Below are positions 1 through 12,009 of a stretch of DNA of 64,000 nucleotides, piece after piece. The translations under genes were made by a program, and so were the position numbers. The first letter of the stretch is position 1. The number at the start of each line of letters is the position of its first letter. Under the pieces are notes generated by a model. It worked only from the letters and a program-made list of their open reading frames with translations, had not been told where the DNA came from and searched no databases. The DNA is from Candidatus Thiodiazotropha sp. 'RUGA' (GTDB taxonomy: Bacteria > Pseudomonadota > Gammaproteobacteria > Chromatiales > Chromatiaceae): the NCBI GenBank assembly GCA_016842065.1, contig JAEPDS010000013.1, positions 1-64,000 on the forward strand, read 5' to 3'.

Positions 1-3000
1 TGTGGTCGAAGCGAACCGAGAGCCAGTTGACGGTTGAGATGTGGCAGCTGTCGCACTGACCACTGGTAAGGATATGGCTCGCATGTTTACCGGTGGCGAT
101 GGTGCCGTTGTGGCAGCTTGAGCAGGTTCCCGCAACACCGGCATGATCGAAGGTACCGGTTGCCCAGGTCACCGTGGTATGACAGTTCTCGCACGGCTCA
201 TTGGTCGGAATGTGATTGGCCGGTTTACCGGTGGCGTCCACATTGTTATGACAGCTTGCACAGCCGGAGACGATACCGGTGTGATCAAAGCGGATGTTCA
301 ACCAGGTGGTATTGGAGATGTGGCAGTTATCACAGGCCGCATTGGTCTGCACATGGTCGGCCGGCTTGCCGGTTGCCGTATTGCCATCGTGACAGCTGGC
401 GCAGGCACCGGAAACCACCGCATGATCAAACGTGATCTGCAACCAGTTGTTGGTGGAGGTATGGCAGGCCTCACAGGAGGCTGTGGTCGCCACATGGGCG
501 GCATGCTTACCGGTCGCTCTGACCCCGTCGTGACAGGATTGGCAGCTGTCCACAACCCCATCATGGTTGAAGTTGGTGATGGTCCAGCTGCTGGTGGTGT
601 GGCAGGTATCACAGGTGGCGTTGGTCAACACATGGGAGGGTGACTTGCCGATGGCGATATCCCCGTTATGACAGAGATGACAGGCCGTGGTAACACCACT
701 GTGGGTAAAGCCGTTGAGGTTCCAGTTGGTCGGCGTATGGCAGTCCTCACAGGGCTGGGTGGTTGCAATATGTCCGGCATGTTTACCGGTGGCGGTGGTG
801 CCGTCATGACAGGATTCACAATCCCCGGTGATCCCCGCATGGTCGAAATTGGAGATCAGCCATCCATCAACCGTATGACAGGTATCGCACTGGGCATTGG
901 TTTGCAGATGGCCGGCGTGCTTACCGGTCGCCCGTACCCCGTTGTGACAGCTTGAACAGACCCCTGCTGTCGGCACGGAATTGTGATCGAAACTGACCCT
1001 CAGCCAGCTGGTAGTCGAGGTGTGGCAGGCATCACACTGCTCAGTGGTAGCGATGTGGTTACTGTGCATACCGGTGGCAGTGGTGCCATTGTGACAGCTC
1101 GAGCAGACGCCGGTGGTGGTCACACCACTATGGTCGAAGCTTGTATCCTGCCAGTTGATGGTCGAGAGGTGGCAAATATCACACTGAGCCGTGGTTTCGA
1201 TATGTTGTGCATGCTTGCCGGTTGCCTGAGTACCGTCATGGCAGTTGGAGCAGTTGCCGCTGGCAGCCACGTTGTCATGATTGAAGGTAAGCAACAGCCA
1301 GTCGATGGTTGATGTATGGCAGCTGTCACATTGGGCATCCGTGGGGATATGCGTGGCGTGTTTGCCAGTCGCGACCACACCATCATGACAGCTCGAACAG
1401 GCCCCTGCCACACCCGCATGATCAAAACGGCCGGTGCTCCAGGTGATGGTGTTGTGGCAGTTCTCACAGGGTTCCGTGGTAGGAATGTGAGTGGCCGGTT
1501 TGCCGGTCGCATCCACCCCATTGTGGCAGGATTCACAGCCACTGGTGATACCGCTGTGGTCGAAGCGAACCGCGGTCCAGGTCTCGTTGGAGATATGGCA
1601 GTTGTCACAGGCCGCTGTGGTCTCAATGTGGTCAGCCGACTTACCTGTTGCGGTGACCCCGTCGTGACAGCTGGCACAGGTGCCGGTGACGATGGAGTGG
1701 TCGAAGGTGACCTCCGCCCAGCTGGTGGTCGAGGTATGACAACCTTCACAGACTGCCGTTGTCGCCACATGGGTATCGTGCTTGCCGGTGGCTCGCACGC
1801 CATCATGGCAGGAGTGACAACTCTCGGTTACCCCTTCATGATTGAAGTTGCTGATGGTCCAGGCGTTGGTGTTATGGCAGTTGTCGCATGAGGCGGTGGT
1901 CGGTATGTGGTTATCGTGCTTACCGGTGGCCACACTGCCGTTGTGGCAGGATTCACAAGTGCCGGAGACACCTTCATGGGTAAATCCTGTCAGTGTCCAA
2001 TCATTGGTTGAGTGACACGCCTCACAGGGTGAAGTGGTCAGAATATGATTCGAATGCTTGCCGGTGGCGGTCACCCCGTTGTGGCAGGACTCACAATCGG
2101 CCGTGATACCTTCATGGGAGAAGTTGTTGACGTTCCAGGCACTGGTTGTATGGCAGGTGTCGCACTCGCCGTTGGTCTGCAGGTGATTGGCGTGTTTGCC
2201 GGTGGCGCGTACGCCATTGTGACAGCTGGAGCAAACGCCCGCGGTTTCGATCGAACCGTGATCAAAACTGACATCATTCCAGTTGCTGGTCGAGTTATGA
2301 CAGACATCGCACTGCTCGGTGGTCTCGATATGCGTCGCATGCAGTCCGGTTGCCTGGGTACCGTTGTGACAGGTGGAGCAACGCCCGGCGGCATCCACCC
2401 CACTGTGGTCAAAACTGGTGTTCAGCCAATTGTCGGTGGAGAGGTGACAGACATCGCACTGTTCAGTGGTCTGAATATGCTGCGCGTGTTTACCGGTCGC
2501 CCGGGTACCATCGTGACAGGAGGAACAGACACCGGCGCTCTGAAATCCATCATGACTGAAGTTGATGACATGCCAGTTGGCGGTGGTTGCATGACAGACG
2601 TCGCAGGACTCATTGGTGACAATATGGGTATCGTGTTTGCCTGGCGCCTGCACACCGTCGTGACAACTCGCACAGGTACCCGGTACTACTTCACTGTGAT
2701 CGAAACCGACCACACTCCAGTCTTCAGTTGAGGTATGACAGGTATCGCACTCTGCGGTGGTCTGTACATGGTCCGCATCTTTGCCGGGCTGTGTAATACC
2801 GTCATGACAACTGGAACAACGGCCGAACACCTCCTCTCCATGGACGAAGTTGACCACCAACCAGGAGTTGGTCGAGGTATGACAGATCTCGCACGGTTCA
2901 CTGGTTGGCACATGACCGACCGGCTTTCCGATGGCGCTGACCCCGTTATGACAGCTCTCGCAATCTCCCCGGATTCCGGCGTGGGAGAAGTTATCCACTC

Positions 3001-3600
3001 GCCAGCTGTTGGTGGTATGGCAGAGATCACAGGCCTCATTGGTCACAATATGATTGGCCGATTTACCCGTGGCGCTGGTGCCGTTATGACAGGTTTCACA
3101 ACTACCGGCAGCAACAGCCGAATGATCGAAAAAGACCAGTAACCAGCTGTTGGTGATATGACAGGTATCGCAGGGCTCTTCGGTGGCGATGTGGGTATCG
3201 TGTTTGCCACGGGCAATGTTGCCGTTATGGCAGCTTTCGCAGGTGCCGGTCACTACCGAGTGATCCACACGGCTGACCCGACCCCAACTGAAAGTGGTGT
3301 GACAGAACTCGCAGGTATTACCGGTACTGATATGGTCACTGTCCTTGCCCTGGGCAGCCGAACCGTTGTGACAGGAGAAGCAGCCACTCTCGATGGTACC
3401 GTGATCGAAACGGGCTACATGCCAGCCGACTGTGGTATGGCAATCATCACAGCGGTCGTCACTTTGAATGTGATCGATCGGTTTACCGGCGGCATCGGTA
3501 TCGTTATGGCAGCCGTCACACATCACCGGTGTGCCCTGGAACTGCCCCTTGTCATGACACTGATCGCACTCCACGTTGCGATGCTCACCGGTGAGCGGAA
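1..3600. repeat. Degenerate 138-bp tandem repeats encoding two-heme units
   Basis: The DNA shows a strong period of about 69 bases (one heme motif) and 138 bases (a pair of unlike motifs). On the plus strand each motif reads as gtg/atg-gca/aca followed six bases later by gca/aca, always in the same frame. Copies differ by many substitutions but keep phase, so the array looks like old duplication held by selection for heme sites. Confidence 0.8.
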
Positions 3601-3730
3601 AGCCGGTTTCAAAATGGTCGAACTCGGCACTCTCGGCGTGGACGAAATTCATCAATGACAGACTGACAACCATGGCCAAGAGCCAGCTGGCCTGTTGCAA
3701 CAGTAATCTAGTTTTAGGCAGTCTCATCAT
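1..3730 (-). CDS. Giant multiheme c-type cytochrome (partial, runs off left edge)
   Basis: The frame is open from the ATG at 3730 to the window edge: at least 1243 residues and no stop. A signal peptide is evident (basic start, hydrophobic stretch, FVHA then ES), so it is exported for heme c attachment. My hand count gives about 51 CxxCH motifs, about 23 residues apart. They alternate between two types (for example FDHTGIVSGCASCHNN, then CENCHTT), giving a 46-residue, two-heme unit. Extra histidines in FDH and in the ATGK..HI segment could be distal heme ligands. The start is chosen for the GGAAGATAGG ribosome site just upstream; an in-frame ATG at 3742 is possible. It lies 22 bases after the 21-heme gene, probably in the same operon. 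Role as a periplasmic or surface electron conduit is inferred; the C-terminus is outside the window, so anchoring is unknown. Confidence 0.88.
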   Translation of the reverse strand, partial: MMRLPKTRLLLQQASWLLAMVVSLSLMNFVHAESAEFDHFETGFPLTGEHRNVECDQCHDKGQFQGTPVMCDGCHNDTDAAGKPIDHIQSDDRCDDCHTTVGWHVARFDHGTIESGCFSCHNGSAAQGKDSDHISTGNTCEFCHTTFSWGRVSRVDHSVVTGTCESCHNGNIARGKHDTHIATEEPCDTCHITNSWLLVFFDHSAVAAGSCETCHNGTSATGKSANHIVTNEACDLCHTTNSWRVDNFSHAGIRGDCESCHNGVSAIGKPVGHVPTSEPCEICHTSTNSWLVVNFVHGEEVFGRCSSCHDGITQPGKDADHVQTTAECDTCHTSTEDWSVVGFDHSEVVPGTCASCHDGVQAPGKHDTHIVTNESCDVCHATTANWHVINFSHDGFQSAGVCSSCHDGTRATGKHAQHIQTTEQCDVCHLSTDNWLNTSFDHSGVDAAGRCSTCHNGTQATGLHATHIETTEQCDVCHNSTSNWNDVSFDHGSIETAGVCSSCHNGVRATGKHANHLQTNGECDTCHTTSAWNVNNFSHEGITADCESCHNGVTATGKHSNHILTTSPCEACHSTNDWTLTGFTHEGVSGTCESCHNGSVATGKHDNHIPTTASCDNCHNTNAWTISNFNHEGVTESCHSCHDGVRATGKHDTHVATTAVCEGCHTSTTSWAEVTFDHSIVTGTCASCHDGVTATGKSADHIETTAACDNCHISNETWTAVRFDHSGITSGCESCHNGVDATGKPATHIPTTEPCENCHNTITWSTGRFDHAGVAGACSSCHDGVVATGKHATHIPTDAQCDSCHTSTIDWLLLTFNHDNVAASGNCSNCHDGTQATGKHAQHIETTAQCDICHLSTINWQDTSFDHSGVTTTGVCSSCHNGTTATGMHSNHIATTEQCDACHTSTTSWLRVSFDHNSVPTAGVCSSCHNGVRATGKHAGHLQTNAQCDTCHTVDGWLISNFDHAGITGDCESCHDGTTATGKHAGHIATTQPCEDCHTPTNWNLNGFTHSGVTTACHLCHNGDIAIGKSPSHVLTNATCDTCHTTSSWTITNFNHDGVVDSCQSCHDGVRATGKHAAHVATTASCEACHTSTNNWLQITFDHAVVSGACASCHDGNTATGKPADHVQTNAACDNCHISNTTWLNIRFDHTGIVSGCASCHNNVDATGKPANHIPTNEPCENCHTTVTWATGTFDHAGVAGTCSSCHNGTIATGKHASHILTSGQCDSCHISTVNWLSVRFDH

Positions 3731-3752
3731 CCTATCTTCCATACCGAATCAA

Positions 3753-5327
3753 TCAGCGAATTTCCGGATTCTCGAAAGTTTCCGTGGAGTGGCAGCGGTC
3801 GCAATGCCGCCCAAATCCACCACGATGAATGTCATCTCCACGATGACATCCGTAACAATGGTTGGCTGACTGTTTGTGCTCGGTCAGCTCAGCGCGATGG
3901 CAGGCGTGGCAGAAAACCTCACCGTGCTTGCCATCCAATGGAAATTCTGTCTGTTCGTCGTGATTAAAGGTCCAGAGCATCCAGGCATTCGGGTTGTGGC
4001 AATCGCCACACAGCTCACCCATTTTTCCTTCATGGGTGTCGTCTTTTTCATGACAGGAGAGGCACTCGATCGCCGTCTGTGGATAGACCGCATCGAGATG
4101 ACAGGATTCACAGGCGGTGACGCTATGGATCCCAATCAATGGAAAGCGTGTGATGTCGTGCTCAAAAAAGAGCTTTTCAGTCCAGCCTTTTTCATTGTGG
4201 CAGTAACCGCAATCCTCACCCAGGTCACCTTTATGCAGATCGATGGCCCGATGGCAGGTGATACACTCGGCCTCTTTCAAGTCGTCCATCGCGGCATTTC
4301 GGTGACAGGCGTGACAACTCAGCTTTTTATGTTTGCCTTTCAATTCAAATTTAGCGTCCTTGCCGTGATCGAACTTGGTCTCTGTCCAACTTGATGGGCG
4401 ATGACAATCCTGGCACTTCTCACCGTTACGCCCTTTATGGTCGTCATCTTTTTCGTGACAGGCGAAACACTTCTTTGAGATTTGCTTTTCGAATGGGCCG
4501 CGGGTATGGCAGGTATCACATGGCACATCCTTATGACGACCCTCAAGCGGAAATTTGGTATCCGCACGGTGATCGAAAGAGAGCTCCTTCCAATCCTCGG
4601 TCGCGTGGCATTTCGCACAAACTTGGCCGTAACGGCCATTGTGCGCATCATTGATCAGATGGCAGCCAATACACTCTTTGGGTGTGTTCTTGTAGTGTTC
4701 ATCGGCATGACAGAGCTTACAGTCGAGATCCCGATGTTTTCCGCTCAATGGATAATCGGTATCCAGATCATGATCGAAATCCTGTTTGCGCCAGCTCTTC
4801 TCGTTATGACATTTATCGCACTCTTCACCCAGTTCCCCACGGTGAGCATCGTCCGACTCATGGCAATCGAAACAGAGAGAGGGGGCTTGGCTGTATTTCT
4901 TATACTCTTTGGTATGACAAAGCTGACAGGCCAACTGCTCATGGCGGCCCCTGAGCTGGAAATCTGTCTGTGAGTGATCGAAATCTTCCGTATCCAGATT
5001 GACGACATCCCGATCCCTACCTTTATGATCGGTATGACACTGCTTACAGTTGGCGGCGCGCTCCTCATCCAGTCTGCCGTGAAAGCCGGTACCCTGCTCG
5101 ATATCCTTGGCCACGTCACTATGATCATGACAAGCCAGGCATCGCTCGACCTGGTCCGCTTTTTTCAAGGTCTCATGGCAGCTTTCACACTTCTCTTCGA
5201 ACTCGGCATGGCCTTCGATGACCGGTCCCGGCATCAAGAGTAGATCCAGCTTCCCTGCATGGCTTGGAGATAGGGTAAATATCATCAGCAATAGTACGCA
5301 AATGACATGCCAGCCAAATCGATTCAT
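3753..5327 (-). CDS. 21-heme periplasmic c-type cytochrome
   Basis: This 524-residue protein has an N-terminal signal peptide (MNRFGWH..., cleavage near PSHA/GK) and 21 CxxCH heme c sites spread over its whole length. Motifs again fall about 20-25 residues apart with recurring FDH and G(K/R)H histidines that may be axial ligands, as in class III/NrfB-like cytochromes. There is no obvious membrane anchor after the signal. Linkers are richer in Lys, Asp and Glu than in the giant cytochrome downstream, so the two are diverged relatives rather than recent copies. It lies between the diheme membrane protein (35 bases upstream) and the giant cytochrome (22 bases downstream). A periplasmic electron carrier linking the two is the simplest inference; no substrate-binding domain is visible. 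Confidence 0.9.
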   Translation of the reverse strand: MNRFGWHVICVLLLMIFTLSPSHAGKLDLLLMPGPVIEGHAEFEEKCESCHETLKKADQVERCLACHDHSDVAKDIEQGTGFHGRLDEERAANCKQCHTDHKGRDRDVVNLDTEDFDHSQTDFQLRGRHEQLACQLCHTKEYKKYSQAPSLCFDCHESDDAHRGELGEECDKCHNEKSWRKQDFDHDLDTDYPLSGKHRDLDCKLCHADEHYKNTPKECIGCHLINDAHNGRYGQVCAKCHATEDWKELSFDHRADTKFPLEGRHKDVPCDTCHTRGPFEKQISKKCFACHEKDDDHKGRNGEKCQDCHRPSSWTETKFDHGKDAKFELKGKHKKLSCHACHRNAAMDDLKEAECITCHRAIDLHKGDLGEDCGYCHNEKGWTEKLFFEHDITRFPLIGIHSVTACESCHLDAVYPQTAIECLSCHEKDDTHEGKMGELCGDCHNPNAWMLWTFNHDEQTEFPLDGKHGEVFCHACHRAELTEHKQSANHCYGCHRGDDIHRGGFGRHCDRCHSTETFENPEIR

Positions 5328-5362
5328 GACGAATGTAGGTAGAGTGTTGCTTGTTTAACGGT

Positions 5363-6274
5363 CTAGTATGCATGCACAGCATAGACATGCACAAAACCGG
5401 TAATCACCATCATGATGAAGAGCGGCATATGCAGCAGATGCCAGATCGCAAAGAGTCTTTCATAGAAATGTAGCTCTAGAACCTGCCGAAGGATAGACCT
5501 GTGGGACAACAGCATTTTTCTGATACGCAGCTGATTACGCCGTACTTTGGACTTGGACCAGCCTTTTTTGTAGCCCACTGCCAGCAGTTTCTTGTTCAGA
5601 GAACGCATCACTTTTGGGTAGAGCACAGCTGAGGTATAGCGCATCTTGACCCAGTGCTTGGCACTCGCGATTGGGCCTGTAGGGGCATTCATGACATCCT
5701 TTTCATACTGCTTCATCAGCTCCTTGGCTTTCGGATTCAATTCAAAAAGGCGTCCCAGTTTTTTCTTCAGAACCAAAGAGTCGGCATGCAATGAAGCAAA
5801 TGTGGCCTTTTTACCATACAAACCGTAGTGGATTCGGGTATAGAAGTAGCGTCCGAACAGACCGCTGATCGCAACAAACAGCATGCTGTAGAGGGCCACC
5901 TGGCCGTTCAGAGAGCCAATATGGAAACTGGAGTGCATCATGATCAGTACCGGACCCAGCACACCAAACACCATGTGCAGGCGGAACCAGAACTTGACAG
6001 TCAGCCATTTGGACATAAAGTGGAGACGTTTACGCATCGGATAGAGCAGTAACAGCAACATCATGCTGCCACCGACGATACCGAGCCAGTAACCCCAGCC
6101 GGCCTCAGCTGTCCACACCGCCTGGGAGTGGTTCAACCATGCCATATAGAGCAGCAGGAGTGAAAACAGGGTAAATCCAAGGGTTGTTATAAGCCCCGCT
6201 CTGCGTTGCCAGGCAGAGAGAATACTCTCCAGTACTGACTCATTTACACTGGTTGATATGGCTGCTGTTTGCAT
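5363..6274 (-). CDS. Diheme b-type transmembrane cytochrome-like protein
   Basis: From the ATG at 6274 this is 303 residues with about five hydrophobic segments: three near 27-47, 59-78 and 97-115, one near 125-142, and one at the C-terminus (about 278-300). Two His-x13-His pairs stand out, H100/H114 and H282/H296. That spacing is the hallmark of cytochrome b helices carrying two hemes across the membrane. A long, very basic loop (about 145-265) separates the pairs. The start is chosen because AGGTGAT, a near-perfect Shine-Dalgarno, sits just upstream; GTG at 6283 and ATG at 6280 are in-frame alternatives. It leads the minus-strand cytochrome operon and faces the Fe-S/flavin oxidoreductase gene. 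A quinol/flavin-to-cytochrome electron-transfer role is inferred; I do not recognise a named family. Confidence 0.8.
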   Translation of the reverse strand: MQTAAISTSVNESVLESILSAWQRRAGLITTLGFTLFSLLLLYMAWLNHSQAVWTAEAGWGYWLGIVGGSMMLLLLLYPMRKRLHFMSKWLTVKFWFRLHMVFGVLGPVLIMMHSSFHIGSLNGQVALYSMLFVAISGLFGRYFYTRIHYGLYGKKATFASLHADSLVLKKKLGRLFELNPKAKELMKQYEKDVMNAPTGPIASAKHWVKMRYTSAVLYPKVMRSLNKKLLAVGYKKGWSKSKVRRNQLRIRKMLLSHRSILRQVLELHFYERLFAIWHLLHMPLFIMMVITGFVHVYAVHAY

Positions 6275-6283
6275 CGACATCAC

Positions 6284-6557
6284 CTACATATTTGGTATTA
6301 ATTACAATCACTTAATTTTTTGTTACTGCTATTTATTCAGAATGAGAGCCGCGATCAGCATTTTCTCCACATTACGTCTCTATGTTATGTTGGGACAAAT
6401 TTCCCATCCATGAAGGGCTTCACAAAAACTCACTCTAAATACATTTATGTTTTCGGCAGAAACCTCAGTGATTGAAATTACTGTGTACAATTTAGGCATC
6501 ATTTCCCACAAACTGTGACAGCTAGCACTCTTTTGAGCCTTTGAGACACGATCAACC
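6284..6557. promoter_or_regulatory. Divergent control region of the electron-transfer cluster
   Basis: This 274-base AT-rich gap separates the minus-strand cytochrome operon from the plus-strand oxidoreductase and ankyrin genes, so both promoters should lie here. I could not assign -35/-10 pairs or a regulator site with confidence. Confidence 0.5.
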
Positions 6558-7874
6558 ATGCAGTACACCATCGATTTCCTGCTGATCTATCTAATACCCA
6601 TACTGCTTGTATGGGCTATTTACATATTGCATAGCCGTAGGAAAAGTAAAAAGAATCTTGCCCTTAAGACTGAAGAGTTCGAAGCGGGCCTGACCGAGCC
6701 GGCCTCTCTCCACCCACTCATCGATCCGGCAAAATGCATGGGCTGCGGAACCTGTGTGAAAGCCTGCCCGGAACAAGCCAACCATCCTGTACTCGGGCTG
6801 ATCGACAATAAGGCTGAACTGATCGCCCCGACCAACTGCATCGGCCACGGCGCTTGCAAAACCGCCTGTCCTTTCGATGCCATTACCCTGGTCTTCGGCA
6901 CGGAGCGGCGTGGTGTCGATATTCCACTGCTGGATAATTTTCAAACCAGCATGCCGGGTATCTACATCGCCGGTGAACTGGGAGGCATGGGTCTGATCAG
7001 AAACGCAATCGTGCAAGGCACCAAAGCCATGGACCAGATCCTGGAGGCACTTAAAGGTGACGGCAGTGCACCCCTGGATCTTCTCATCGTGGGTGCCGGC
7101 CCGGCTGGATTCTGTGCCTCCTTGCGAGCGATGGAGAAGAAGCTCAAATACAAGACAGTGGAGCAGGAGTCTCTGGGAGGAACGGTTTTTCAATTCCCCA
7201 GAGGCAAACTGGTGATGACCGCACCGGTAAAACTGCCCGTGGTTGGCGAGGTAAAATTTACTGAAACCACCAAAGAGAAGCTGCTTGAGTTCTGGCAGGA
7301 TGTGGAGCAGAAAACCGGCGTACAGATCAGCTACCATGAGCGGGTGGAGAAGATAACCGCCAACCCGGCTGGTGGCTATGATGTGAAAACCAACAAAGAC
7401 ACCTATCATACCCGCGTGGTCCTGCTCGCTATCGGCCGGCGCGGTACTCCTCGAAAACTCGGTGTGCCTGGCGAGGATCTGAGTAAGATCACCTATCGTT
7501 TGATCGATCCAGAACAGTATAAGAACCAACATGTTCTGGTGGTTGGCGGCGGTGACAGTGCGCTCGAAGCGGCAACCAGTATCGCGGCGGAACCTGGCAC
7601 CACAGTCACCCTCTCCTACCGCAGTGGCGCCTTTAGCCGGGCAAAGAAAAAGAATCGGGAGAAGGTGGATCAGGCTGCCGCATCAGGTGAACTGAACCTG
7701 TTGCTCAGCACCAATGTCACTGAGTTCACTGAAGAGACCGTCACCATCGACAAGGGTGGGGAGAAGATTGAAATTCCCAATGACGCCGCCATCATCTGTG
7801 CTGGCGGTATACTTCCAACAGGTTTTCTTAAAGAGACTGGTATCAATGTGGAAACCAAACATGGCACTGCCTAG
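6558..7874 (+). CDS. Membrane-anchored ferredoxin/FAD pyridine-nucleotide oxidoreductase with permuted FAD motifs
   Basis: 438 residues. An N-terminal transmembrane helix (about 6-24) is followed by a ferredoxin domain. Its first cluster is canonical (C60, C63, C66, C70). The second reads CIGHGACKTACP, so the second ligand position is His97 instead of Cys. Next comes a GIYIAGELGG motif (134-143), which in thioredoxin-reductase-like flavoproteins normally lies at the C-terminus. Then come the FAD Rossmann motif VGAGPAG (178-184) and the NAD(P) motif VGGGDSALEAA (329-339); the protein ends soon after. No CxxC redox disulfide is present, so it is not a thioredoxin reductase. It is divergent from the cytochrome operon and overlaps the next gene by 14 bases. 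Likely role: moving electrons between NAD(P)H or ferredoxin and the membrane cytochrome. Confidence 0.87.
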   Translation: MQYTIDFLLIYLIPILLVWAIYILHSRRKSKKNLALKTEEFEAGLTEPASLHPLIDPAKCMGCGTCVKACPEQANHPVLGLIDNKAELIAPTNCIGHGACKTACPFDAITLVFGTERRGVDIPLLDNFQTSMPGIYIAGELGGMGLIRNAIVQGTKAMDQILEALKGDGSAPLDLLIVGAGPAGFCASLRAMEKKLKYKTVEQESLGGTVFQFPRGKLVMTAPVKLPVVGEVKFTETTKEKLLEFWQDVEQKTGVQISYHERVEKITANPAGGYDVKTNKDTYHTRVVLLAIGRRGTPRKLGVPGEDLSKITYRLIDPEQYKNQHVLVVGGGDSALEAATSIAAEPGTTVTLSYRSGAFSRAKKKNREKVDQAAASGELNLLLSTNVTEFTEETVTIDKGGEKIEIPNDAAIICAGGILPTGFLKETGINVETKHGTA

Positions 7875-9906
7875 ATCCAACACAATAATCAGACAGACAG
7901 GGATGGTGATGTTGCTGTGTCTTATGCTGGTTGTACCCTTTCCTATACTTTCAGCAGAACATGCCGAGGCTGAAGCGGCGGTTCGTATCCGGGATTTCGA
8001 TCGTGCCGTCGAGATTTACACTCAACTTGCCGAGCAGGGGGATGCCGAGGCGCAATTCGCACTCGGAGGTCTCTATCGTGGCGGCCGTGGTGTCAAGAAG
8101 GATTATGCCAAGGCGCTCCACTGGTACCTGAAAGCCGCCAATCAGGAGCATACGGAAGCCCAGTACACCACCGGCACCATGTATGAGAACGGCTGGGGCG
8201 TTGACGCGGACTCAGCAGTCGCCAGCGAATGGTACGATAAAGCCGCGATTCAGGGTCATCGATTGGCGAAGAAGCGGTTGGAAAATCTCTCCACCACCTC
8301 TCCGGTAACAGGCTTGAGCGACCAGCAAGCGGCCGAATTTCTCAATCGCGCGGCGGCCGCAGGCAAGAGTGAAACCCTGAAACGCATCCTGGCTTCAGGT
8401 CTCTCTCCCGATACCCGGGATGAGTTCAGTCGCAGCGCCCTGCATGAGGCGGCTATCAATGGCCGAACAAATGCGGTTGAAATCCTGCTTGCAGCAGACG
8501 CCAACCCGAATACCAGTGACAGCCTCGGGGACACCCCGCTCCACTCCGCTGCCGGATTGGGTTACGCATCGATTGTGCGCAGCCTGATCAAGGCTGGCGC
8601 CAAGACGGAAACCCTGGACGCCAATGAAAACACGCCTTTGTTGGTCGCCACCGGCAGAAAACACCTGGAGGCCATTAAGGCCCTGCTGGAAAATGGTGCC
8701 AGTGTGAATGCCAAAAACCGTAAAAAACAGACCTCACTGGATATGGCAATACTGCGTAATGACAAAGCAATTGCCAGACAACTTAAGGCCGCTGGTGGTA
8801 TCGCAACCCAGACTCAAAACAAAACCAAAGAGTTCCCGGATCTTGCAAAGATCACCGCATCAATTTCCCAGTCGAATGAAAACCCGGATAACAAGAGTAA
8901 TCCGTTTGCGGGCTGGAGCACTTTGCATCTTGCTGCCTGGCGTGGCCAGAAGCCTTTGATCGAGGCACTGCTCAAACAGGAGAGTAATCTCGACACACTG
9001 GATCCTGAGGGATTGACCCCACTCAGCCGAAGCGTATGGCAAGGCCACGATGAAGTAACAACCTTACTGCTTGATCATGGTGCCGATCCCAATCTGGCGG
9101 CCAGCGGTAGCCCTACCCCTCTATTGTTGGCCTGCCGTGAGAACAACCTGAAGCTGGTCAAGCTGTTGATCGCACGTGGTGCGAAAATTGATGTCTCCGG
9201 CAAACATGAGATAACGCCACTGCATTTGGCGATCGAGCAACAGAATCTGGAATTGGTAGAGCTGCTGATCAGAAACAATGCCCGATTGTCCACCACCACC
9301 GATGCCGGTATCACGCCATTGATACTGGCGGTACTCAAAGCCCAGCCTGAAATCGTCAAGATTTTGCTTTCGCGCGGTGCCTCACCGGATCAGGCAGACA
9401 ACAAGGGCCGGACTCCGCTCTACCATGCGATTGGTGTTGGTGATCCCACTATTTTTCATCAACTGTTGAAGAGTGGGGCAAAAATCGAATTGCAAGCCGA
9501 TGATGGACTCACCCCCATGATGCGCGCCGCTGCAAACGGTCATGCCGACATGGTGGAAGAGCTGATTCCCCGTGAGGGTTATGTGGACCGGCTGAGTAAC
9601 AATGGCAATACGGCATTGATGCTGGCAGCCAGAAGCGGCTCGCTAAACACGCTGAATATCCTGTTACGCTATTCGGAAAACCTGGAACATCGCAACAATG
9701 CGGGGAACAGTGCCCTGATGCTCGCAGCAGAACAGGGACATCTCTCGATTGTAAAACGTCTGCTGGAGATGAAAGCCAACGCCCACCATCTCAACCTGCG
9801 ACGTGAGAGTGCCGAAGACCTCGCCCGACAGGGGAATCATGATGAAGTGGCTGAGTATATCGATGCCAATAAAGGCAGTGGTGGTTTACTCGACTTGATG
9901 CGCTAG
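7861..9906 (+). CDS. Exported Sel1-like/ankyrin-repeat protein
   Basis: From the ATG at 7861 the product is 681 residues and begins with a clear signal peptide (hydrophobic MVMLLCLMLVVPFPILSA). Two or three Sel1-like (TPR-type) repeats follow (A.AQFALGGLYRGGRGV..D and A.AQYTTGTMYENGWGV). The remainder is a long series of roughly a dozen ankyrin repeats with G.TPLH/LAA and LL..GA signatures. Both repeat types bind proteins. The frame stays open upstream to 7714, but that extension overlaps the oxidoreductase and would bury the signal peptide. The 14-base overlap suggests translational coupling. Possible roles are assembling or protecting the periplasmic redox proteins (compare the periplasmic ankyrin AnkB of Pseudomonas) or a host contact factor. 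The partner is unknown. Confidence 0.82.
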   Translation: MALPRSNTIIRQTGMVMLLCLMLVVPFPILSAEHAEAEAAVRIRDFDRAVEIYTQLAEQGDAEAQFALGGLYRGGRGVKKDYAKALHWYLKAANQEHTEAQYTTGTMYENGWGVDADSAVASEWYDKAAIQGHRLAKKRLENLSTTSPVTGLSDQQAAEFLNRAAAAGKSETLKRILASGLSPDTRDEFSRSALHEAAINGRTNAVEILLAADANPNTSDSLGDTPLHSAAGLGYASIVRSLIKAGAKTETLDANENTPLLVATGRKHLEAIKALLENGASVNAKNRKKQTSLDMAILRNDKAIARQLKAAGGIATQTQNKTKEFPDLAKITASISQSNENPDNKSNPFAGWSTLHLAAWRGQKPLIEALLKQESNLDTLDPEGLTPLSRSVWQGHDEVTTLLLDHGADPNLAASGSPTPLLLACRENNLKLVKLLIARGAKIDVSGKHEITPLHLAIEQQNLELVELLIRNNARLSTTTDAGITPLILAVLKAQPEIVKILLSRGASPDQADNKGRTPLYHAIGVGDPTIFHQLLKSGAKIELQADDGLTPMMRAAANGHADMVEELIPREGYVDRLSNNGNTALMLAARSGSLNTLNILLRYSENLEHRNNAGNSALMLAAEQGHLSIVKRLLEMKANAHHLNLRRESAEDLARQGNHDEVAEYIDANKGSGGLLDLMR

Positions 9907-9917
9907 ATCTTTTCAGC

Positions 9918-10018
9918 CGTGAATGTTCGCCAAGCACCGCCAAATGACGCAAATGGATCTAATGAGTGATTAAAGTGCTGGCGTGTATTTGCGGTGATTT
10001 GCGCAATTTGCGACCGAT
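9918..10018. repeat. Imperfect palindromic intergenic repeat, copy A
   Basis: Between the convergent ankyrin and rarA genes lies an imperfect inverted repeat. Its left arm is rich in cgccaa/cgcaaatgg words and its right arm in gcgtgtatttgcggtgatttgcg. The same vocabulary recurs at 50607-50703 and 59805-59895. It could fold as a long stem-loop and end transcription in both directions. Confidence 0.55.
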
Positions 10019-10051
10019 CTGTAGACCTGGCAGAAGCTCAGAAAACAGGCA

Positions 10052-11386
10052 TCACTCCTCGCCTGCCTGTTGATCCAGCTTGCGCAGAAACGCCAGTTTT
10101 TCGGCAATTTTAATCTCCATGCCCCGATCCACCGGTACATAGTAGTGGCGACCGCTCAGCTCTTCCGGCATATAGTTTTCACCCGCCGCATAGGCATGAG
10201 GTTCATCGTGGGCATACCGATAGGCCTTGCCATAATCGAGAGACTTCATCAGTTTGGTCGGTGCATTGCGAAGTGCCAACGGCACCTCCAGTGAGCCGGA
10301 TGATTTGGCATCCGCCAGGGCACTTTTCCAAGCCATGTAGACTGCGTTGCTTTTCGGCGCGCAGGCCATGTAGACCACAGCCTGGGCAATCGCCAGCTCC
10401 CCTTCCGGGCTACCCAGCCGCTGCTGGACATCCCAGGCATTGATCGCCAGTTGCAAAGCTCGGGGATCCGCATTGCCGATATCCTCCGATGCCATTCTGA
10501 CCACCCGGCGGGCCACATAGAGGGGATCGCAACCACCATCGATCATCCTGGCCAACCAGTAGAGTGAGGCATCCGGTGAGGATCCACGAACTGATTTATG
10601 CAGTGCGGAGATCTGGTCATAAAAGGCCTCGCCCCCCTTATCGAAACGACGCAGGGTACCACTTGCCACCTCCTCGACCGTCGCCGTTGCGATCTGTTTT
10701 GAATCACTCAGATCAGCGGCAATCTCAAGCAGGTTGAGCGCCCTTCGGGCATCTCCGTCGGCCGCTTCAGCAAGTAACGCCAAAGCCTGTTTTTCGATAC
10801 TCAGCTGCCTGACACCAAGACCGTTCGACGCATCGTCCAACGCCTGCTGGAGAATCTTTTCGATCTCACTTTTTGTCAGCGCTTTGAGAACGTAGGTACG
10901 GGCTCTCGAGAGCAGTGCGTTGTTCAACTCAAACGATGGATTCTCAGTAGTTGCACCGATGAACACCACCGTGCCGTCCTCCACATGAGGCAGAAAGGCA
11001 TCCTGTTGTGATTTGTTGAATCGGTGAACTTCATCGATGAACAGCACCGTCGGTCGCTGCTGTTGCTGCTGAAACAGTTTTGCTTTCTCTACGGCGGCAC
11101 GGATCTCCTTGACTCCGGAGAGTACTGCGGAAAGACTGAGAAACTGTGCACCTGAATGTTCAGCAATCATACCGGCCAGGGTGGTCTTGCCGGTACCTGG
11201 GGGTCCCCAGAGTATCATTGAGTGGAGACGGTCCTCTTCGATCGCTACCTGCAGCGGTTTACCAGAGCCGATTATGTGGCTTTGGCCGATGAATGCCGCC
11301 AGCTTGCGAGGTCGCATACGGTCTGCAAGAGGTCGAAACTCCTCGACCGGATTTTGCGTAAAAAGATCCTGATCCTGAACCGTCAT
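10052..11386 (-). CDS. rarA: Replication-associated recombination protein A (AAA+ ATPase)
   Basis: 444 residues, the normal length for RarA/MgsA, the bacterial relative of Mgs1/WRNIP1. The Walker A motif GPPGTGKT (61-68), a Walker B LFIDEVHR (about 115-122) and the sensor region [12 protein letters not shown] are intact. The C-terminal tetramerisation half ([30 protein letters not shown]) is full length. It acts at stalled replication forks with SSB. The start codon overlaps the lolA stop as ATGA, so it is translated from the ftsK-lolA-rarA transcript, an order common in gammaproteobacteria. Confidence 0.96.
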
Positions 11387-12009
11387 AGATCGCCAATCAG
11401 GTCGATCAGTGGGGGTGGTTCGAATTCGAACAAAGCGTCATCCAATGGAGGATTGCGTTGCATATCATCGAAGAAAAAGCGGGTTACCTGGCCAAAATTG
11501 TCAAACATCTCCATGCGTTCCAGGCGACTCTCCTGGAGTGCCAGGCGAACACTGGAAAACTGAGCCTCTTTGCCTTTTGGAATCAGCTCAAGCCAGGTCA
11601 GCTCACTCTCCACGCCCAACTCATTGATCTCAAAGTGCTCGGAGATTGGTCCTGTACCGCTTAGCAGTTGTGCCGGCGTACCATCCAAGACCGCCGCTTG
11701 GCTGCGGTGTGATACCTGCTCCAGTTCAATATCATGCAACCAGACCCGATCTCCGTCAGCAACGATCAACTGTTCACTGGGTGTCTGATACTCCCAGCGC
11801 AACTGTCCGGGGCGTCTCAGATAGAAGACTCCGTTACTGGCGTAGACCTGATCGTAATCCGGCTGTTGCAAGGTCTGACGAAAGTCGGCTTTGAGGGTTT
11901 TCAGATCCTGCAAAAAAGTCTCAAGCTGGCTGATTCCACTCTCTGCCGAGAGGGTTTGGGAGAGGCTTAAAAACAGTAGCAGCATCAAGCCGCTCAAGCA
12001 CTTTTTCAT
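11383..12009 (-). CDS. lolA: Outer-membrane lipoprotein carrier protein LolA
   Basis: 208 residues with a signal peptide ([20 protein letters not shown], cleaved near LSA/ES). The mature part matches periplasmic Lol[10 protein letters not shown] near the start, the [14 protein letters not shown] strand and [13 protein letters not shown]. LolA takes lipoproteins from LolCDE and passes them to LolB at the outer membrane. It lies 26 bases downstream of ftsK and overlaps rarA by four bases. Confidence 0.96.

Follow-up and report, generated by a model that had tools for sequence, protein, structure and literature searches.

A PCC3 porin-cytochrome cluster in a Candidatus Thiodiazotropha symbiont and its companion Fe-S/FAD flavoprotein

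The porin-cytochrome cluster PCC3 is widespread and is discussed mainly as a candidate for iron oxidation. As described in the text of He et al. 2017 (PMC5566968), it contains a porin, an extracellular multiheme cytochrome (MHC) with a median of 34 and a maximum of 85 hemes, a periplasmic MHC with a median of 21 hemes and an inner-membrane protein (IMP) of about 300 residues. The IMP is given five transmembrane helices there; helix 4 carries SGxxG, helices 3 and 5 each carry WX3HX13H, and the protein is linked to the quinone pool. The same text places PCC3 in gammaproteobacterial animal symbionts and states that few known iron oxidisers carry it. Electron transfer between the quinone pool and the outside is unproven in the published cases too, according to the text of PMC12442390. 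How does the locus at the start of contig C13 of Candidatus Thiodiazotropha sp. 'RUGA' compare? The stretch analysed, here called the window, covers bases 1 to 64,000 of that contig (100,789 bases), which belongs to a genome of 4.77 Mb and 177 contigs. We conclude that the locus is a member of the PCC3 cluster, porin included, and not a new conduit. It is ordinary in kind; the point that seems new, and that can be tested, is that PCC3 is accompanied by its own NAD(P)H-type flavoenzyme.

Three genes run leftward from base 6283, encoding the IMP, a 21-heme cytochrome and a giant cytochrome, and two run rightward, encoding an iron-sulphur/flavin adenine dinucleotide (Fe-S/FAD) protein, hereafter the flavoprotein, and a Sel1/ankyrin-repeat protein (table 1). 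A first-pass annotation of this DNA had named all of these but the last, and open reading frame calls find its four genes with every coordinate correct. Each published PCC3 component has its counterpart here. The periplasmic MHC corresponds to a protein with 21 CXXCH motifs in 524 residues, about 25 residues per heme as in the published clusters, and a signal-like N-terminus. The giant cytochrome corresponds by heme count to the extracellular MHC, with 51 motifs in the window and 67 when contig C88 is added; its surface location is predicted. The IMP carries SGxxG and two WX3HX13H motifs, and an 846-residue putative barrel is encoded on C88. The counts of 51 and 21, which the first-pass annotation gives as well, lie far above those in 500 shuffles of each protein's own residues (giant, mean 0.7 and maximum 4; 21-heme, mean 0.3 and maximum 3), and Pfam finds cytochrome c7/c3 repeats in both. 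The first cytochrome after the IMP has 21 CXXCH motifs in 56 of the 72 named PCC3 loci in which it is complete; here and below, the named loci are the best 80 of 360 confirmed IMP loci. No solved relative of the 21-heme protein was found at E 0.001.

What of the porin? The first-pass annotation saw none, and inside the 64-kb window there is no barrel gene near these genes. The giant cytochrome gene, however, runs off the end of contig C13, which makes 51 motifs a lower bound. Scanning the same genome for cytochrome c7 repeats, we found that a 7,540-base contig, C88, ends in a truncated gene; the last 91 bases of this contig are exactly the first 91 of the window. Because the giant cytochrome gene is repetitive, this overlap alone could mislead. 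The join is firm because the two parts fit a protein of a relative exactly and the same genes follow downstream. The window part aligns to residues 1–1247 of the 1650-residue, 67-heme protein of genome G008 at 98% identity, and the C88 part to residues 1218–1650 at 95%. Since one of the 51 and 17 motifs lies inside the 30 residues common to both parts, the full cytochrome has 67 hemes. The 846-residue gene directly behind it on C88 is 98.8% identical to the gene at the equivalent place in G008. Its product has SPOR and TPR parts in Pfam, weak barrel matches (OMP_b-brl_3, E 0.0011, under the cut-off) and a C-terminal Phe, and these matches, that residue and the position of the gene mark it as a putative outer-membrane barrel. 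In each of the other seven Thiodiazotropha genomes compared over this stretch, the giant cytochrome is followed by a gene of 827–852 residues, and all seven keep the order IMP, 21-heme cytochrome, giant MHC, barrel protein. A putative barrel, which the first-pass annotation proposed to look for left of the window, lies beyond the end of the window's contig. With that gene placed behind the cytochrome as on the relatives' single contigs, a porin-less new conduit is ruled out as a candidate, and an unclassified conduit without a porin keeps almost none of our credence.

Two further features of PCC3 cytochromes were seen in other loci. In L141 (12584–20744, + strand) the giant cytochrome has at least 89 CXXCH motifs in 2720 residues and runs off the examined stretch; the largest known to the text of He et al. 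2017 has 85 hemes (PMC5566968). In two tubeworm symbiont loci, L084 and L088, the 21-heme and giant cytochromes lie in shorter frames (8 + 21, 29 + 13 and 8 + 13 motifs), which could be decay or an assembly error.

Related clusters differ in kind. PCC4, in the text of He et al. 2017, resembles our locus in that its IMP has two HX13H motifs and stands beside further redox proteins, but its periplasmic MHCs number three (of 4, 5 and 10 hemes) and an extracellular MHC is lacking (PMC5566968). MtrAB, MtoAB and PioAB share the principle of a barrel with a periplasmic MHC, whereas here that MHC has 21 hemes and not 10, a dedicated and apparently diheme-b IMP is present, and MtrB_PioB is absent among the Pfam matches of the barrel protein, as seen with the protein of the relative. 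A single weak match to MtrB_PioB in the genome (22.1 bits), on contig C22, was rejected as a sign of an Mtr or Mto system, no gene with two or more CXXCH motifs being present in the surrounding 14 kb. The first-pass statement that this is not a standard Mtr, Pio or Cyc2 system is supported, as is its reading of several genes that together form a conduit between cytoplasm and surface, a set that proves to be conserved; the missing porin and the unclassified status are not, given the PCC3 features. Compared with the four genes in the published text of PCC3 (the text itself, as distinct from its figures and supplements), the flavoprotein gene and usually an ankyrin gene are additional here.

The IMP itself has no Pfam or NCBIfam match. 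Three sets of residues, W99-H103-H117, W281-H285-H299 and S140-G141-G144, are kept in 41 of 42 aligned rows or more. Its AlphaFold2 model (mean predicted local distance difference test score, pLDDT, 86.3) has helices that fit five membrane spans with a helical insert before the last; a simple hydropathy count gives three helices in the window protein and two to five in relatives. No solved fold matched the model (best E 0.98), and it has no credible solved relative. From the conserved Trp and His motifs, and not from a family match, we infer that the IMP binds two b hemes; the first-pass annotation also calls it a diheme b-type protein. The basic loops between helices 2 and 3 and between helices 4 and 5 would be cytoplasmic, with H103 and H285 holding a heme on the inner side and H117 and H299 one on the outer side, and the insert (about residues 152–272) may be a cytoplasmic docking place.

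Does the flavoprotein belong with PCC3? To address this question we counted matches in genome samples, at E 1e-35 or better for the IMP and E 1e-60 or better for the flavoprotein. The first class sample, 369 genomes drawn evenly, has 42 genomes with the IMP and 45 with the flavoprotein: 41 have both, one (G224) the IMP alone, four the flavoprotein alone and 323 neither. (Of the 61 genomes that match the IMP at E 1e-8, 42 are counted; the other 19 are partial matches, the best at 1e-18. Second fragments of one IMP copy in G297 and G371 do not count as copies.) The four among 327 genomes with a flavoprotein and no strong IMP are G132 and G335, with fragments, G211, a genome 72% complete, and G173, where the match is weak and lies in a longer protein. 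For 41 of the 47 IMP copies in this sample the flavoprotein gene lies on the same contig within 12 kb, 40 times on the opposite strand. In the order of a Curvibacter bin (200 genomes) the same 10 genomes have both proteins, and in the class of a Bradyrhizobium (376 genomes) the same four; at these thresholds the rest have neither. The samples include the window's own genome (first sample) and the centre genomes G402 (order) and G604 (second class), which were chosen for their PCC3; without these the co-occurrence is 40 of 41, 9 of 9 and 3 of 3. The sampled genomes are not independent by descent, and the Fisher value of the class sample overstates the evidence. The order sample falls inside the class of the first sample, and genomes may be common to both.

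The named loci give the same picture from the side of the gene neighbourhood. The flavoprotein gene is in the examined stretch of 76 of the 80; 77 contain a cytochrome with at least five motifs and 50 a barrel gene, many loci being cut. Three of the four loci without the flavoprotein gene have it elsewhere in the genome (in one 10.7 kb and in one 13.7 kb off on the same contig); in the fourth, L078, the IMP is at a contig end and no flavoprotein match was found anywhere in the genome. Where both genes are complete (74 loci), the flavoprotein gene is divergent from the IMP gene in 60, upstream on the same strand in 11 and otherwise placed in three. The record titles include Alphaproteobacteria, Nitrospirota, Nitrospinaceae, Deltaproteobacteria and Opitutaceae, mostly metagenome bins whose names may be wrong. 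Nearer to the window, 20 of 22 Thiodiazotropha genomes, among them its own, match the IMP strongly; in G007 the match is weak, and G014 lacks one. Loss of the neighbourhood in relatives, which would have told against the first-pass conduit, is thus not what these samples show: the neighbourhood is kept.

This conserved neighbourhood also extends to the Sel1-ankyrin gene that follows the flavoprotein gene. It is present in 66 of the 80 named loci and overlaps the end of the flavoprotein gene in the window; in 58 loci with both genes complete on one strand, the gap is 14 bases or less, or the genes overlap. In the literature searched, figures, supplements and subscription papers lying outside the search, no text links either gene to PCC3, though such a link may already be published; we found no paper that treats both PCC3 and Thiodiazotropha.

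What kind of enzyme is the flavoprotein? Its designation as an Fe-S/FAD oxidoreductase in the first-pass annotation is borne out by Pfam (Fer4 and Pyr_redox). An N-terminal hydrophobic helix is found by hydropathy in 73 of 74 complete members, with a mean of 5.0 Lys and Arg in the 15 residues after it versus 0.7 before. Because basic residues follow the helix, the positive-inside rule places the Fe-S/FAD body in the cytoplasm, which suggests a membrane-anchored protein facing that side. Two Fe-S motifs come next. One is CxxCxxCxxxC, its second Cys replaced by Ser in four of 45 aligned sequences; the other is CxxHxxCxxxC (window 6840–6873, residues 94–104), in which His97 is invariant (45 of 45 aligned, 74 of 74 complete), and this may be a Cys3His cluster. 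The FAD loop that follows is GAGPAG; a second loop for dinucleotide binding, GGGDSA, comes later, and after it R355 and R361 are invariant in all 45. Such arginines occur in enzymes using reduced nicotinamide adenine dinucleotide phosphate (NADPH), and they suggest NADPH as the substrate.

The closest solved chains are YpdA (E 1.5e-41 with a profile) and enzymes of the ferredoxin-NADP reductase and thioredoxin reductase types. The likeness to YpdA and to thioredoxin-reductase-like ferredoxin-NADP reductases lies in the FAD and NAD(P) domains of the 438-residue protein; the N-terminal membrane helix and the two Fe-S motifs, one of them CxxHxxCxxxC, set it apart. A further difference is that the superfamily's C-terminal FAD motif apparently stands before the FAD domain. 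The piece TSMPGIYIAGELGGMG, which precedes the FAD loop, resembles that motif in a permuted place, and TSMPGIYIAGE (residues 131–140) stands before GAGPAG. A rotated query gained 0.2 to 4.9 bits for the nine chains in common and matched 14 chains versus 9 for the native one. These observations are suggestive only of a circular permutation of the FAD domain.

Kinship with YpdA and the thioredoxin reductases raises another explanation, that the flavoprotein and the ankyrin protein serve cytochrome maturation or protection, for example by keeping heme-binding Cys reduced, and do not carry the electrons of the conduit. That the ankyrin gene is optional would suit such a role. However, none of 45 aligned flavoproteins has a CxxC beyond residue 150, and position 183, in the GxGPxG loop, is Ala in 38 and Ser in seven. 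The protein thus lacks both the CxxC of thioredoxin reductase and the YpdA-type Cys of the GGGPCG loop, and a disulphide reductase is disfavoured. Its two Fe-S motifs suit one-electron transfer, and other multiheme loci seen in the same genome are without such a gene. We consider a maturation role improbable.

How, then, might the parts work together? We propose a wire across the cell envelope that has an NAD(P)H-type plug on its cytoplasmic side, a reading to which we give about an even chance. Gene content, order, conservation, co-occurrence and motifs are observed, whereas the cofactors, the topology, the contacts between partners and the use of NADPH are inferred. The membrane-anchored flavoprotein would exchange electrons between NADPH and its own two Fe-S clusters via FAD; the clusters would pass them to the two b hemes of the IMP, these to the 21-heme cytochrome in the periplasm, and this to the 67-heme cytochrome, seated within the outer-membrane barrel or outside it. 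For the Sel1-ankyrin protein we propose the role of a periplasmic scaffold. We favour outward flow, disposing of reductant to an outside acceptor, because transfer from NADPH to most outside acceptors is downhill, whereas inward transfer to NADP+ would need energy. We read PCC3 as a system of five to six genes whose cytoplasmic flavoenzyme and IMP would exchange electrons, whereas the published model stops at the quinone. Somewhat short of an even chance, in our estimate, is the stronger form of this proposal: that PCC3 is an NADPH-coupled five- or six-gene conduit and not one for quinone-linked iron oxidation, the flavoprotein with its Cys3His motif and permuted FAD domain being the obligate cytoplasmic gate.

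The cluster may instead work as published. An outside donor (Fe(II) or other) would feed the giant cytochrome, the barrel and the 21-heme wire, and the IMP would deliver to the quinone pool, with the flavoprotein as a side branch or as a source of NAD(P)H by reverse flow. This is the model in the text of He et al. 2017 (PMC5566968), and the IMP gene of PCC3 copy 2 in Sideroxydans CL21 is up with iron-oxidising activity, which favours inward flow (text of PMC12442390). The IMP motifs, moreover, resemble those of quinone-active cytochromes b. The near-invariable pairing of flavoprotein and PCC3, on the other hand, is not predicted for a mere side branch. Both PCC3 clusters of S. lithotrophicus ES-1 are down with Fe(II) in the text of PMC8788666, which in that strain agrees with some role apart from Fe(II) oxidation, and the scarcity of PCC3 among known iron oxidisers comes from He et al.'s own account. 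We regard the inward conduit as possible but rather unlikely.

Several points weigh against the wire with an NADPH plug. To the CL21 expression and the tie of the IMP to quinone by He et al. 2017 (PMC5566968) must be added that the co-occurrence of flavoprotein and IMP is no proof of contact. Pairwise distances of the two proteins correlate weakly (Spearman 0.30 over 74 loci, a value reached by 0 of 999 permutations; 0.18 when Thiodiazotropha is left out, with 59 loci). Some genomes carry the flavoprotein gene on a different contig or at a distance above 10 kb, and G224 has none. Foldseek matches of the flavoprotein model have template-modelling scores of about 0.4 on the query, a match at the level of the superfamily.

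Present in almost every carrier of PCC3 sampled and almost absent from the other genomes, the flavoprotein gene would mark the place where electrons enter or leave on the cytoplasmic side. It makes that end of PCC3 testable with two proteins and NADPH, and it would be a better marker of PCC3 than the variable, repetitive cytochromes. The locus also gives clam symbionts, which are known for oxidising sulphur, a predicted electron conduit. If the proposal is true, PCC3 bacteria can couple their NADPH pool directly to the exterior by an unbroken, quinone-free chain of as many as about 90 hemes.

Table 1. Features of the PCC3 locus; positions are those of the window unless a contig is named.
Feature	Position	Strand	Basis
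Giant multiheme c-type cytochrome (PCC3 'extracellular MHC'), first 1247 residues, 51 CXXCH, signal-like N-terminal helix	2..3742	-	Open reading frame, Pfam, motif count
21-heme c-type cytochrome (PCC3 'periplasmic MHC'), 524 residues, ~25 residues per heme	3753..5327	-	Open reading frame, Pfam, motif count
PCC3 IMP, 306 residues	5363..6283	-	W-x3-H-x13-H twice, SGxxG, AlphaFold2
TGGGA-N6-TCCCA inverted repeat, candidate shared operator	6391..6406	.	Between divergent IMP and flavoprotein genes
Membrane-anchored (predicted) Fe-S/FAD oxidoreductase, 438 residues	6558..7874	+	Pfam, motifs, alignment, PCC3 linkage
Sel1/ankyrin-repeat protein, signal-like N-terminus	7861..9906	+	Open reading frame listed from 7714; likely start 7861 or 7903
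Rest of giant cytochrome, 433-residue open frame, 17 CXXCH (L062)	contig C88 6239-7540	-	30 residues common with window part
Putative outer-membrane barrel protein, 846 residues	contig C88 3545-6085	-	Position, weak Pfam matches, C-terminal Phe

Between the divergent IMP and flavoprotein genes lies a palindrome, TGGGA-N6-TCCCA, with one copy in the 64-kb window against 0.05 expected. All 15 divergent intergenic regions from the Thiodiazotropha group, whose members are close relatives, contain it, as do three of 44 others, and it may be a shared operator of the two genes. No Rfam match was found in positions 1–12000, and no tRNA in the whole window. Beyond the barrel gene on C88, the next genes match in length and start those for CrcB, DUF190 and seryl-tRNA synthetase in G008, and are taken as unrelated neighbours.

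The same genome holds other cytochrome genes. Two clusters of 2- to 4-heme cytochromes on contig C12 (L066 and L067), each with an 11-heme one, are possibly another, Uet-like electron-transfer system. On contig C22 (L163, 3808–8834) a 10-heme cytochrome stands beside genes with twin-arginine-like starts, a group that probably encodes a separate respiratory enzyme.

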